A program made the position numbers and the translations under genes. A model generated the notes under the pieces. The model saw only the letters and a program-made list of their open reading frames with translations. It did not search any database and had not been told where the DNA came from. Shown piece by piece: positions 31,408 through 48,716 of a DNA stretch of 64,000 nucleotides. Origin of the DNA: Brevibacillus choshinensis (GTDB lineage Bacteria > Bacillota > Bacilli > Brevibacillales > Brevibacillaceae); NCBI RefSeq assembly GCF_016811915.1, contig NZ_CP069127.1:1952001-2016000 (forward strand), written 5' to 3'. How positions within the stretch are numbered: position 1 is the first letter of the stretch; each line of letters opens with the position of its first letter.

Positions 31408-32922
31408 ATGATTGAGATTACGTGCGTGGGACACGCATTTGAGCGGGAGCTTTCCCTGATTCTCGCTTTGTTTTATGAAGACCCGCAGCTCGCGTTCACG
31501 AGCCAGTGGACAGATGAGCCGGGCTTAAAGCTCAGACTCACCCTGACGCTGCGTGAAGACGGCGTGCTGGCGACAGGAGAATTATTTGACGGTACTCGTC
31601 AAATCCATCACCAGGTCAATCGCAGCTATGTGTCCCGCGAAGAAAAAGCGATGCGCAAAACGGCGAAGCAAGCTCTTTGCTATGCTTTGCTGTTAATACT
31701 GGAAGAATATACAGGAATGGAGCAAGGCTGGGGGATCTTGACAGGCATCCGCCCGACGAAGCTGCTGCACCAGATGAATGTGGCCGGAATCGGGAAAGCC
31801 GAGGCGCATCAGCGATTGCAAGAAGATGTGATCCTGCGCCCGTACAAGCTGCAGCTCCTCCAGAATATCGTGGATCGGCAACTGCAGGTCGTACCGGATC
31901 TGTACCAGATCGACCAGGAGCTGTCCGTGTACATCGGGATTCCATTCTGCCCGACGAAATGCGCGTATTGCACGTTCCCTGCCTATGCGATTCGCAGCCA
32001 TACGGCATCGGTCAATCCGTTTCTCGAGGGACTCCACTACGAAATGGAGCAGCTCGGAAAATGGCTTACGGACAACGATCAGCGGATCACTTCGATCTAC
32101 TTTGGCGGAGGGACGCCGACGAGCATTACGGCCGACGACATGGATCAGCTGTTCCAGACGATGCACCGCTCTTTTCCGCACATGGATAAGGTCAGGGAGC
32201 TGACGGTAGAGGCTGGAAGACCGGATACGATCACCCGGGAGAAGCTGGATGTCATGAAGCGCTGGGAAGTGGACCGGATCAGCATCAATCCGCAATCGTT
32301 CACGCAGGAGACGCTGAATGCAATCGGCAGACATCACACCGTCGAAGAAACGATCGAGAAGTACCACCTCGCCATGGAGATGGGCCTCACCAATATCAAC
32401 ATGGACTTGATCATCGGCCTGCCTAACGAAGGTGTGGCCGAGCTCGCACACAGTCTGCAGGAAGTGGAAAAGCTCATGCCAGCTTCCCTGACGGTCCATA
32501 CGTTGTCGTTCAAGCGTGCATCGGAAATGACGCAAAACAAGGAACGCTACAAAGTGGCAAGCCGCGAAGAAATCAGTGAAATGATGGAAATGGCGTCGAG
32601 TTGGACTGCGGCAAACGGATACGACCCATACTACCTGTACCGTCAGAAAAACATTCTGGGGAATCTGGAGAATGTCGGCTACTCCAAGCCAGGTCAGGAG
32701 AGCATCTACAACATCATGATCATGGAAGAGGTCCAGACCATTCTCGGCCTCGGCTGTGGAGCGGTATCCAAGCTGATGGCGCCGGGAAGCGGCAAGCTGA
32801 CACGCTGGCCGAACCCAAAGGATCCCAAGACGTACAACGATACGTATCGGGTACTGGTAGAGAACAAGCTTCGTGATCTGGACGACATATATTTCGGAAA
32901 AGCCACTTCTCTGGCACAATAA
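31408..32922 (+). CDS. hemZ: HemZ, oxygen-independent coproporphyrinogen III dehydrogenase-like radical SAM enzyme
   Basis: This 504-residue radical SAM protein carries the 4Fe-4S motif in IGIPFCPTKCAYCTFPAY (CxxxCxxC, about 175). The SAM-binding segments YFGGGTPTSI and INPQSFTQETLNAIGRHHT follow, as in the HemN/HemZ group. The N-terminal extension of about 160 residues before the radical SAM core marks HemZ rather than HemW. HemZ oxidises coproporphyrinogen in anaerobic haem synthesis. ATG 31408 follows AGGTGTAG. It lies just before the hisS T-box but has its own promoter. Confidence 0.88.
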   Translation: MIEITCVGHAFERELSLILALFYEDPQLAFTSQWTDEPGLKLRLTLTLREDGVLATGELFDGTRQIHHQVNRSYVSREEKAMRKTAKQALCYALLLILEEYTGMEQGWGILTGIRPTKLLHQMNVAGIGKAEAHQRLQEDVILRPYKLQLLQNIVDRQLQVVPDLYQIDQELSVYIGIPFCPTKCAYCTFPAYAIRSHTASVNPFLEGLHYEMEQLGKWLTDNDQRITSIYFGGGTPTSITADDMDQLFQTMHRSFPHMDKVRELTVEAGRPDTITREKLDVMKRWEVDRISINPQSFTQETLNAIGRHHTVEETIEKYHLAMEMGLTNINMDLIIGLPNEGVAELAHSLQEVEKLMPASLTVHTLSFKRASEMTQNKERYKVASREEISEMMEMASSWTAANGYDPYYLYRQKNILGNLENVGYSKPGQESIYNIMIMEEVQTILGLGCGAVSKLMAPGSGKLTRWPNPKDPKTYNDTYRVLVENKLRDLDDIYFGKATSLAQ

Positions 32923-32942
32923 TTGCTTTGTAAAAAAACTTT

Positions 32943-33306
32943 TATAATAGCGCCTGTTGACTCCGAGTAAGCAGGTTTGCTATGATTCACAATAAGCTTT
33001 TGAAACAGGAATATGGATCTGATGACGGGAACAAGTATCCAAGAGACGATATTCAGAGAGAGAGTGCCGTGGCTGAGAGTGCTCTCATAGACGACTTGGT
33101 GAATGACATCCCCGAAGACCGCAGTGAACGGCAGAAGCTGCATTGGCTTCCTCAGTAACTGACAGGCGTCCGCCGGCGTTATCGGCTTTATGAAGAGGAG
33201 TGACTCAACGGTCGCTCAATCAGGGTGGCACCACGGGAGTTAAAACCAGTCTCTCGTCCCTGACCTGTAGTTTGCGCTACAGGTCAGGCGGCGAGGGGCT
33301 TTTTTA
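32943..33306 (+). promoter_or_regulatory. T-box riboswitch of hisS-aspS
   Basis: A -10-like TATAAT (32943-32948) is followed by a T-box leader. Stem I shows the AGTA loop motif (33034-33037) opposite GAAT-GAC-A (33101-33108), between helices CCAAG/CTTGG and GGG/CCC. The T-box AGGGTGGCACCACGGG is at 33223-33238. The terminator is formed by CCTGACCTGTAG/CTACAGGTCAGG and ends in T6 (33300-33305). By comparison with the alaS leader the codon in register is GAC (Asp), with an overlapping CAT (His) at 33107-33109. Uncharged tRNA would prevent termination and raise hisS-aspS expression. Confidence 0.9.
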
Positions 33307-33336
33307 TTTTCTTAATCATAATGGGGGTTCAGACGA

Positions 33337-34617
33337 ATGACGCGCATTCAAATTCCTCGCGGTACGCAGGACATCATGCCCGGTACCGTAGAGCTGTGGC
33401 ACTACGTGGAGGCCAAAGCCCGCGATTTGTGCCGACGCTCCAATTATCAGGAAATCCGCACTCCGCTGTTTGAGAGCACTGAGCTGTTCCAGCGCGGCGT
33501 AGGCGAGACCACCGACATCGTGGAAAAAGAGATGTACAGTGTGGCGAATCCACGCAGCACGGATGCCCTCACACTGCGTCCAGAGGGGACGGCCGGGGTC
33601 GTTCGCTCCTATGTGGAGAACAAATTGTACGGCTCACCGAATCAACCGACGAAGCTGTACTACCTGGGGCCGATGTTCCGGCATGAGCGCCCACAGGCAG
33701 GCCGTTACCGTCAATTTGTTCAGTTTGGTGCAGAAGCGATCGGGTCCAGTGACCCGGCGATTGACGCGGAAGTGATCGGCCTTGCGATTCGTCTGTATCA
33801 GGAGCTGGGCTTGACTGGACTCAGCGTCGAGCTGAACAGCGTAGGCACGCTGGAAGACCGCGCTCATCACCGCGAGCATCTGCTGGCTCATCTGAATGGC
33901 GTGCGGACTGAGCTGTGCGAGGATTGCCAATCCCGGATCGATCGAAATCCGCTGCGCGTGCTCGACTGCAAAAACGAGAAGTGCAAGTCTCTGACCAAAG
34001 ATGCGCCATCGATTCTCGACTACTTGAGCGAAGAGTCGGCTGCACATTTTGAAGCCGTGAAAGGCTACCTGACCGCGCTGGATATCCCGTACCACGTGAA
34101 TCCACGTCTGGTTCGCGGGCTGGATTACTACACCCTGACCGCGTTTGAGATCAAGATGGCAGAGATCGGTGCGGTAGAGACCTTGTGCGGCGGCGGCCGC
34201 TACAACGGGCTGGTGGCAGAGCTCGGCGGCGATGATATGCCGGGTATCGGCTTTGCACTCAGCATCGAGCGATTGCTGCTGGCGCTGGAAAAACAAGGCG
34301 TGCAGCTGCCGATCAGTGGTGGGATCGATTGCTTCGTAGTCGTACAATCGCCAGAGGCAAAAACACAGGCATTCGTCCTCGTGGATCAATTGCGTCGGGC
34401 GGGAATTGCGGCTGAGCTCGATTACCTCGATCGCAAAATGAAGGCACAGCTGAAGCAAGCCGATCGCCTGTCTGCTCGTTTTACCGCGATCATCGGTGAG
34501 ACGGAGCTGGCAAACGGCACTGTCGTATTGAAAGAGATGGCAACAGGCGAACAGCAAGAGGTCAAACGAGATGAGCTCGTGACCGCGCTGAGCGCAAAAT
34601 TACAACCTACAATCTAG
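33337..34617 (+). CDS. hisS: Histidyl-tRNA synthetase
   Basis: This 426-residue class II synthetase charges tRNA-His. It starts IQIPRGTQDIMPG; motif 2 is YLGPMFRHERPQAGRYRQF (about 108-126), the His-binding segments are LVRGLDYYT (about 259) and GGGRYNGL, and motif 3 is GIGFALSIERL (about 306). A C-terminal anticodon-binding domain follows. ATG 33337 is preceded by ATGGGGG. It is controlled by the upstream T-box and shares the transcript with aspS, 22 bases downstream. Confidence 0.97.
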   Translation: MTRIQIPRGTQDIMPGTVELWHYVEAKARDLCRRSNYQEIRTPLFESTELFQRGVGETTDIVEKEMYSVANPRSTDALTLRPEGTAGVVRSYVENKLYGSPNQPTKLYYLGPMFRHERPQAGRYRQFVQFGAEAIGSSDPAIDAEVIGLAIRLYQELGLTGLSVELNSVGTLEDRAHHREHLLAHLNGVRTELCEDCQSRIDRNPLRVLDCKNEKCKSLTKDAPSILDYLSEESAAHFEAVKGYLTALDIPYHVNPRLVRGLDYYTLTAFEIKMAEIGAVETLCGGGRYNGLVAELGGDDMPGIGFALSIERLLLALEKQGVQLPISGGIDCFVVVQSPEAKTQAFVLVDQLRRAGIAAELDYLDRKMKAQLKQADRLSARFTAIIGETELANGTVVLKEMATGEQQEVKRDELVTALSAKLQPTI

Positions 34618-34639: not shown

Positions 34640-36430
34640 ATGGCATGGCAATATCGCACCGTACATTGCGGAGAAGTAACAAAAGAACACGTCGGACAGG
34701 AAATCGTCCTGAATGGATGGGTACAAAAGCGTCGTGACCTCGGCGGAGTTATTTTCATCGACTTCCGTGACCGTACCGGCATCGTGCAAATCGTGTTCAA
34801 TCCAGAGCACCACAAGGGTGCTTGGGAGCTCGCCGATAAAGTTCGCAGCGAATACGTACTGGTCGTAAAAGGAACGGTTGTAAACCGCGCGCCGGAAGCG
34901 ATCAACCCGAAATTGCAGACAGGAGAAGTGGAAGTGCACATCTCCGACATTCAAATTCTCAACGAAGCGAAAACGCCTCCGTTCCAAATCGAGGATGAAA
35001 TCGATGTAGATGAGCAAGTGCGCCTGAAATACCGCTACCTGGACCTGCGCCGTCCGGAAATGCAGCGCTCCCTGATTCTGCGCAGCAAAGCAGCGAAGGC
35101 ATTCCGCGACTACCTCGACAACAACGGCTTTGTGGAAGTAGAAACCCCCATGCTGACAAAGAGCACGCCAGAGGGCGCCCGCGATTACTTGGTGCCATCC
35201 CGTGTGCATCCAGGCGAGTTCTATGCATTGCCGCAATCACCACAGCTGTTCAAGCAGCTGCTGATGGTGTCCGGTCTGGAACGCTACTATCAGATCGTTC
35301 GTTGCTTCCGTGACGAAGACCTGCGCGCTGACCGTCAGCCGGAATTCACCCAGGTGGACATTGAGACATCTTTCCTCTCTATGGAAGAAATCCTGCCCAT
35401 GATGGAAAAGATGGTCGCACACGTTTTCAAAGAAACGCTCGGTATTGACATCCCGACTCCGTTCCCGCGCCTCACATACGCAGATGCAATGGGACGCTAC
35501 GGCTCCGACAAGCCAGACGTTCGCTTCGGCATGGAGCTGACCGATGTATCCGACCTGGTAGCGAGCAGTGATTTCAAAGTATTCGCCAGCGTAGTAGCGG
35601 GTGGCGGTCAAGTAAAAGCGATCAACGCGAAAGGCTGCGGTCACTATTCCCGCAAAGAGGCTGACGACCTGCAAAAATTCGCAAACCGCTATGGTGCGAA
35701 AGGCCTGGCGTACATCGGCTTCCAAGGCGGAGAGGTGAAAGGTCCAATCGCGAAGTTCTTTAAAGAAGAGGAAATCGCTGAACTGAAAAAACGCCTGTCC
35801 GCTGAAGATGGCGACTTGCTTCTGTTCGTGGCAGACAAACCAAAAGTGGTTGCGGATGCTCTGGGTGCCCTTCGCTCCAAGCTGGGTGCGGAGCTCGGCC
35901 TGATCGACCACAGCAAATTCGCGTTCCTGTGGGTCGTAGACTTCCCACTGGTTGAATGGGATGAAGAGGCGAAGCGCTACGTGGCTCTGCACCATCCGTT
36001 CACTCGTCCAAAAGACGAAGACCTGCACCTGTTCGACACGGATCCAGGTCAAATCCGTGCACAAGCGTACGACATGGTGCTCAACGGCTACGAGCTCGGC
36101 GGCGGTTCCATGCGGATCTTCAAGCGTGACGTGCAAGAAAAAATGTTCAAAGCGCTCGGCTTTACACCAGAAGAAGCCCGCGAGCAATTCGGCTTCCTCC
36201 TCGATGCGTTTGAATACGGCACACCACCGCATGGCGGTATCGCACTCGGTCTGGACCGCTTGATCATGCTGCTGGCAGGACGCACCAACCTGCGCGAAGT
36301 GATTGCGTTCCCGAAAACAGCGAGTGCAACCGACCTGATGGTAAACGCACCAGATGTGGTAGCTCCAAGACAGCTGTCTGACCTGCACATCGCGACAACC
36401 GTTGAAGAGGAAGAAAAGGTAGAAGCGTAA
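34640..36430 (+). CDS. aspS: Aspartyl-tRNA synthetase
   Basis: This 596-residue bacterial-type AspRS has an N-terminal OB anticodon-binding domain ([19 protein letters not shown], about 28-46). The class II core has motif 2 [21 protein letters not shown] (split: [16 protein letters not shown]) and motif 3 [16 protein letters not shown] near 530. The bacterial GAD insertion lies between about 290 and 420. ATG 34640 is chosen because GGAGG lies 10 bases upstream, making the earlier GTG 34625 part of that site. It is the second gene of the T-box operon. Confidence 0.97.
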
Positions 36431-36480
36431 GCGACTTGCACAACCGCATTGCGATTTGATACAGTGGTAATACTAAAATG

Positions 36481-36668
36481 AAGCCCTGCGATGTACGTGA
36501 AATCCGATAGTTTTGAGCCACAAAGTTTTTTTAGGGAGTTTACCGTCCGCAACTGTAAAGGCATGCCTCCGTTTGAGTGGACGTCTGTAACAGTTGGGCA
36601 AGACACCCACCTGCGATGAGCAGGTTCAAAACTAAGGAGCTGAACGGCATAATGGGGCTCCTTTTTTC
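36481..36668 (+). ncRNA. ssrS: 6S RNA (BsrA-type)
   Basis: A -10-like TAATACT (36468-36474) precedes a transcript of about 188 bases. AGCCC near the 5' end pairs with GGGCT near the 3' end. TCC-ATAGTTTTGA (about 36506-36520) pairs with TCAAAACTA-GGA (about 36628-36640). CAACTGT pairs with ACAGTTG in the apical arm. The 3' side of the central bubble carries the hairpin ACCTGC-GATGA-GCAGGT, a known 6S feature. It ends in T6. B. subtilis bsrA lies at the same place between aspS and yrvM/tcdA. 6S RNA binds sigma-A RNA polymerase and restrains it. Confidence 0.8.
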
Positions 36669-48449: not shown

Positions 48450-48716
48450 AACAAAGCAATACAGGTTTGGATCAATGAGGGAACGAGTATGTTGCAGCCC
48501 TTCTACAGAGAGGACGCTCCACGGTTGAGAGAGCGGCCAGAAGAAGTGCGACAGAAGGCTACTCCTAAGACCGGGCAAAAACCGGCGGCTTGGCACCGTT
48601 AAAGGCCGTAAAGCGACAGGCATTGGCTTTGGTTTAACGCATCAAGGGCCTGTAAGCAGGGTGGTACCGCGAGAAAAACAGTTCTCGTCCCTGAGGGGAT
48701 GGGGGCTTTTTTTATT
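48450..48716 (+). promoter_or_regulatory. T-box riboswitch of alaS
   Basis: Stem I has the AGTA motif (near 48487) opposite GAAG-GCT-A (48556-48563); the upper helix is TGTTGCA/TGCGACA. The specifier GCT (48560-48562) is an alanine codon, matching the gene. The T-box AGGGTGGTACCGCG is at 48658-48671, followed by GAGAAAAACAGTTCTCGTCCCTGA split arms and a terminator GTCCC/GGGAT region ending in T7. Uncharged tRNA-Ala would promote read-through. Confidence 0.93.

Follow-up and report, generated by a model that had tools for sequence, protein, structure and literature searches.

In the T-box leaders of hisS-aspS operons the specifier loop characteristically carries GACAC, and Gutierrez-Preciado et al. 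2009 are described as having suggested that this sequence interacts mainly with tRNA-Asp (PMC5313534). The same review is cited elsewhere for two alternative structures that would sense both tRNAs (PMC4342826), and the idea of a double reading at hisS-aspS is already in print, credited by these later papers to the 2009 review. The hisS-aspS T-box of Staphylococcus aureus has been called a histidine T-box (PMC7927825), regulators of hisS are described as switching between sensing systems (PMC2965389), and operons in which a synthetase gene stands second under a T-box of another specificity form an existing category (PMC2494555). Two-codon T-boxes do exist, as the original prediction for the present locus had stated: Saad et al. 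2013, as described in PMC4052509, reported a Clostridium acetobutylicum T-box with overlapping Asn and Glu positions. An experimental test of double sensing at hisS-aspS was not found in the open-licence literature that was searched.

The leader studied here precedes hisS and aspS of Brevibacillus choshinensis, within a window that comprises the whole 64,000-nucleotide stretch of DNA that was analysed. It shares with the published GACAC leaders (PMC5313534, PMC4342826) the operon, the overlapping Asp/His sequence and the question of what is sensed, and differs from them in reading GACAU and in its organism. Like the C. acetobutylicum T-box it holds two codons that overlap within a single specifier loop; that system, however, concerns Asn and Glu, lies upstream of a transamidation operon and is reported to bind both tRNAs (PMC4052509), whereas ours is a reading of the sequence. 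The features of the locus, in window coordinates, are as follows.

33013..33264, + strand: T-box leader RNA, Rfam RF00230 (cmscan, 99.9 bits, model positions 1-219)
33021..33025, + strand: GATGA, 5' strand of the motif at the base of Stem I, which we take to be a kink-turn (sequence, aligned to the RF00230 consensus)
33027..33030, + strand: GGGA, 5' strand of the lower Stem I helix in register A, pairing with UCCC at 33109-33112
33031..33037, + strand: 5' side of the specifier loop, ACAAGTA (sequence)
33101..33108, + strand: 3' side of the specifier loop, GAATGACA (RF00230 alignment and sequence)
33105..33107, + strand: specifier codon GAC (Asp), in register (RF00230 alignment, relatives and sequence)
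33107..33109, + strand: overlapping CAT, a His codon two bases 3' of GAC (sequence), whose T33109 pairs with A33030 in register A
33109..33112, + strand: UCCC, 3' strand of the lower Stem I helix in register A (folding)
33026-33029 paired with 33111-33114, + strand: slid register B of the lower helix (folding)
33222..33261, + strand: antiterminator with the T-box sequence (RF00230 alignment)
33226..33229, + strand: UGGC (UGGN with N = C), meeting the tRNA acceptor end, its C pairing with G73 of tRNA-Asp (sequence)
33248..33306, + strand: intrinsic terminator hairpin and T run (33240-33312 folds at -42.9 kcal/mol, z -8.9)
33337..34617, + strand: hisS, histidyl-tRNA synthetase, with relatives in 397 of 398 genomes of the class
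34640..36430, + strand: aspS, aspartyl-tRNA synthetase, from the ATG at 34640 (the open reading frame list begins at GTG 34625)

The match to RF00230 lies above the family gathering score of 93 (99.9 bits, E 8.1e-21) and covers Stem I, the antiterminator and the T-box sequence. The terminator hairpin with its T run competes ahead of the amino-acid genes hisS and aspS, and folds strongly even though a simple terminator scan over 32890-33340 listed no terminator there; the antiterminator, folded alone, stays close to its shuffles (-13.5 kcal/mol, z -1.4). The leader is one of 25 T-box matches in the whole genome, among which two in tandem (G000:C1:1657386-1657656 and 1657697-1657933) both read CTC (Leu) ahead of a gene that by eye resembles 2-isopropylmalate synthase. 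Immediately downstream of aspS the window holds a 6S RNA (RF00013, 87.9 bits, 36480-36662, + strand).

The original prediction had placed an Asp codon in register despite hisS being the first gene, with a His codon overlapping it, and both codons are where it put them: GAATGACATC occupies 33101-33110, GAAT-GAC-A spans 33101-33108, and the last base of GAC opens the CAT. GAC has the position that the specifier holds in other T-boxes of this genome, for instance in GAAG-GCT-A of the alaS T-box of the same window (48466-48695, + strand). This comparison, drawn in the original prediction, is sound as to layout, although the alaS motif lies at 48554-48561, two bases below the 48556-48563 given there, and the alaS T-box differs in its Ala specifier and in N = T, which pairs with A73. 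The alaS T-box scores 77.5 bits, under the gathering score, so that a default Rfam scan misses it.

The antiterminator points to the same tRNA as the codon. The tRNA-Asp genes of the genome (seven found by pattern) have the anticodon GTC and, in all three that were read, the end GCCA, to which UGGC of the leader is complementary; the tRNA-His genes have the anticodon GTG and the end CCCA (3/3 read), with C73 as against G73 in tRNA-Asp. A tRNA discriminator was read for eight of the genome's 25 T-boxes (Phe twice, Gly, Cys, Trp, Ala twice and Asp), and in all eight it pairs with the N base. In keeping with G73, N is C or T in all 100 GAC hisS leaders of the main survey described below and in six leaders of the family added to it. 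In general, C73 is expected for tRNA-His and G73 for tRNA-Asp and tRNA-Asn. A plain histidine T-box upstream of hisZ in a genome from another family of the class (locus L234, the only T-box found by pattern before hisZ among 50 loci scanned) reads GAA-CAC-A, and its N is C although its tRNA-His is expected to have C73. Because this His T-box also has N = C, that base is no bar to tRNA-His, and we dropped it as a proof against His sensing; TBDB likewise sets discriminator matching aside for His (PMC7778990).

We consider it probable that the leader works as an ordinary transcriptional T-box, with uncharged tRNA-Asp as its signal and hisS and aspS under its joint control, the overlapping CAT most likely having no sensing role. 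Uncharged tRNA-Asp (anticodon GUC) would pair with GAC of the specifier loop and, through its GCCA end, with UGGC of the antiterminator; once bound, it would block the terminator and allow the hisS-aspS operon to be transcribed, whereas charged tRNA-Asp would be unable to bind in this way and transcription would halt at the terminator. The T-box itself, the register of its codon, the N base and the tRNA discriminators, the terminator and the gene order are seen directly; that the leader binds this tRNA, antiterminates and gives no response to histidine is what we infer.

The comparison of many hisS-aspS leaders, which the original prediction had proposed, covered 170 hisS loci: 25 genomes of the genus, one genome for each of five other genera of the family, a single genome per genus for 60 more genera of the class, and 80 named loci. 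A T-box was found by pattern in 59 of the 60 class genomes and 54 of the 80 named loci, the 27 loci of the 170 that had none by pattern (1/60 class, 26/80 named) standing outside the counts; L153 and L173 begin at hisS and hold no leader. Motifs were set by hand in eleven leaders, and L113 and L130 were counted as AACAC. Six further genomes from the five other family genera were read in addition and kept apart from the 143-leader counts, the tree and the scoring of slid helices.

Within the genus all 25 leaders read GACAT. The five other family genera read GACTT (two) or GACCT (three), so that GAC is present in 5/5 and CAY in 0/5, and the six added genomes read GACCT (five) or GACTT (one), with N = C in each. 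GAC is therefore kept in 25/25 genus genomes and in 11/11 examined from other family genera, a conservation that, on the sequences compared, is beyond chance. GACAT, in turn, is retained within the genus (25/25) and lost just outside it (0/11). This loss in relatives, a check named by the original prediction itself, counts against the additional tRNA-His sensing put forward there, which thus lacks support: all 11 genomes keep GAC without CAY, and the two codons are not kept together in the other family genera examined. Farther afield, GAC occurs in 36 leaders of the class genera (27 with CAY) and 34 of the named loci (27 with CAY), and AAC in 23 (21 with CAY) and 20 (all with CAY), respectively. 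GAC is kept and CAY seems free to be lost in the Aneurinibacillus group and in 6/8 named Paenibacillus, much as in the other five family genera.

On a tree of HisS with 127 rows, to which the genus contributes 10 of its 25 members and from which L101 is absent, the GACAT genus is nested in a family otherwise without CAY, with branch supports of 83 and 87 that lie below the starred level. With the genus nested among relatives that lack CAY, the CAT of this leader looks to have been gained within the family rather than retained from an old double sensor.

The strongest competitor of Asp sensing is the double sensor itself, in which Stem I would take two forms, GGGA/UCCC presenting GAC to tRNA-Asp and CGGG/CCCG presenting CAT to tRNA-His, and a shortage of either would raise both synthetases. 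We hold this to be unlikely, although several observations suit it. The gene that comes first is hisS, and no other His T-box was recognised among the 25 of this genome, both of which count against an Asp-only reading. (A His leader peptide before the genome's own hisZ was looked for separately; the 1500 bases upstream hold no run of at least three His codons.) In print, double sensing has been proposed for hisS-aspS and an Asn/Glu two-codon T-box is known, as PMC4342826 and PMC4052509, respectively, relate. Folding of Stem I, to which the original prediction had also looked, does not single out the GAC register: register A keeps GAC in place, the slid register B puts CAT in place, and ViennaRNA, whose energies leave out both the kink-turn and the loop E motif, computes -20.2 and -20.1 kcal/mol for the two and divides the pairing between them (probability 0.36-0.44 for A, 0.51-0.58 for B). 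Our own pairing score gave 26 for slid registers and 25 for the GAC register. The slid helix is possible in 25/25 genus leaders, all of which carry CAT.

Against double sensing stand the 11 family genomes without CAY and the nested position of the genus, and the slide itself is found where there is no His codon to present. Of the 21 GAC leaders without CAY, 16 could be scored and 7 of these can form it, and the very UCCCCG stretch seen here stands behind GACCU in L318; of the 54 GACAY leaders outside the genus, 42 could be scored and only 6 can form it. Among GAC leaders, these counts indicate, availability of the slide does not track presence of the His codon. For 23 of the 143 leaders the lower helix had no assignable position; two of them (L154 and L162, both GACAY) do have the slid helix. 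In the slid form, moreover, CAT would be followed by C, as against A or G after most specifiers.

The overlap of codons also has a plain source. GAC and CAT share one base, and the CAT arises here from a specifier with C as its last base, an A behind it in the loop and then the U that closes the lower helix; beyond the specifier and the stem, it requires only A33108. Among 58 unrelated T-boxes with a C-ending specifier, 30 have the same overlap, 14 of 21 in this genome and 16 of 37 among the best 60 of 130 matches in seven other genomes. By codon, and with the same limit to the best 60 of 130 elsewhere, it is frequent with Ile ATC (6/7), Ser TCC (5/6) and Cys TGC (5/5) and rare with Leu CTC (2/14) and Val GTC (0/5). 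The 21 are drawn from the 25 T-boxes of this genome; the other genomes' matches (47 and 83) were ranked by score, and from their best 60 four hisS leaders, 15 T-boxes with a specifier not ending in C and four with an unreadable specifier (L263, L272, L288 and L302) were left out. Because automatic register calling by base pairing was unreliable, picking the wrong place in several T-boxes, specifiers of the other T-boxes were read by eye and the strings checked by script. L025, which reads GACTGCACCCCATCC, was counted as CCC-A-T, and L267, L303 and L015 were read as CGC, their genes not identified.

An overlap this common (30/58, with the best 60 of 130 taken elsewhere) means that even a conserved overlapping CAY tells little about histidine, and the CAT of this leader looks like a by-product of the ordinary T-box build. 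Outside the genus CAY is present in 54 and absent in 21 of 75 GAC leaders (the six added ones excluded), a fraction somewhat above the 30/58 of other T-boxes (the best 60 of 130 elsewhere), the excess being uncorrected for kinship; this, like the GACAT kept throughout the genus, speaks against a sensor of tRNA-Asp only. As a warning for similar predictions, a codon overlapping a C-ending T-box specifier is to be expected about half of the time, given that an A often comes next in the loop and is usually followed by a pyrimidine of the stem.

That the leader senses tRNA-His alone, with GAC incidental, is very unlikely. The place of hisS at the head of the operon would suit it, and relatives with AAC keep CAY in 41 of 43 leaders although their Asp codon is gone, but GAC here occupies the canonical place, is retained where CAY is lost, and is accompanied by an N = C that pairs with G73 of tRNA-Asp. 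A tRNA-Asn sensor reading the neighbouring AAT (33102-33104) would likewise find G73 on its tRNA, yet this AAT comes from the generic loop GAA extended by a base and lies three positions out of register, and the genome has its own asnS above the cut-off, which leaves that reading with next to no probability.

Asp sensing through GAC thus being our preferred account of this leader, the AAC leaders of other genera pose a separate question. They are found, with CAY kept in 41 of 43, in many Bacillaceae, in Planococcaceae and in a Staphylococcus, and N in the 43 is C in 23, T in 9 and A in 11. The simplest reading of their sequences is that they would sense tRNA-His, as their first gene suggests. 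Of the 41 AACAY leaders, 37 could be scored and 21 of these can form the slid helix, a frequency for which there is no control and which would suit a His-reading form there. AAC is also an in-register Asn codon, and we considered Asn sensing on behalf of a non-discriminating AspRS; this found no support, as asnS lay above the cut-off in 23/23 AAC-leader genomes tested and the need for such sensing is not indicated. The three of 39 genomes without an asnS match above the cut-off all have GAC leaders. On the HisS tree, eight G/A changes are needed at the first codon position, and starred branches force at least four for the AACAY group; the tree gives no direction for the change, and a sign test of the first codon base against CAY had too few pairs.

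Two further features of these leaders were seen. Eleven leaders of Planococcaceae type (L094, L106, L107, L109, L115, L144, L146, L147, L149, L152 and L155) combine AAC and CAY with N = A, which would pair neither with the expected G73 of tRNA-Asp and tRNA-Asn nor with the expected C73 of tRNA-His. Among Bacillaceae hisS leaders, the AAC ones of L064-L075 together with others, many have a specifier loop that is one base longer, GAANGAACAC as against GAAN-GAC-A.

It is conceivable, though we think it quite improbable, that GACAY is a bridge between the two specificities, with leaders on one side holding on to GAC and those on the other, with AAC instead, holding on to CAY, its two-codon form being a sensor of two tRNAs that in this leader would switch between Asp and His by a cost-free slide of the helix. 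For this window alone little hangs on the answer, as the leader is a T-box of known kind; the wider series is the part worth experiment. If a one-base change does switch hisS-aspS leaders between Asp and His, these leaders would make a good natural series in which to follow the evolution of T-box specificity.
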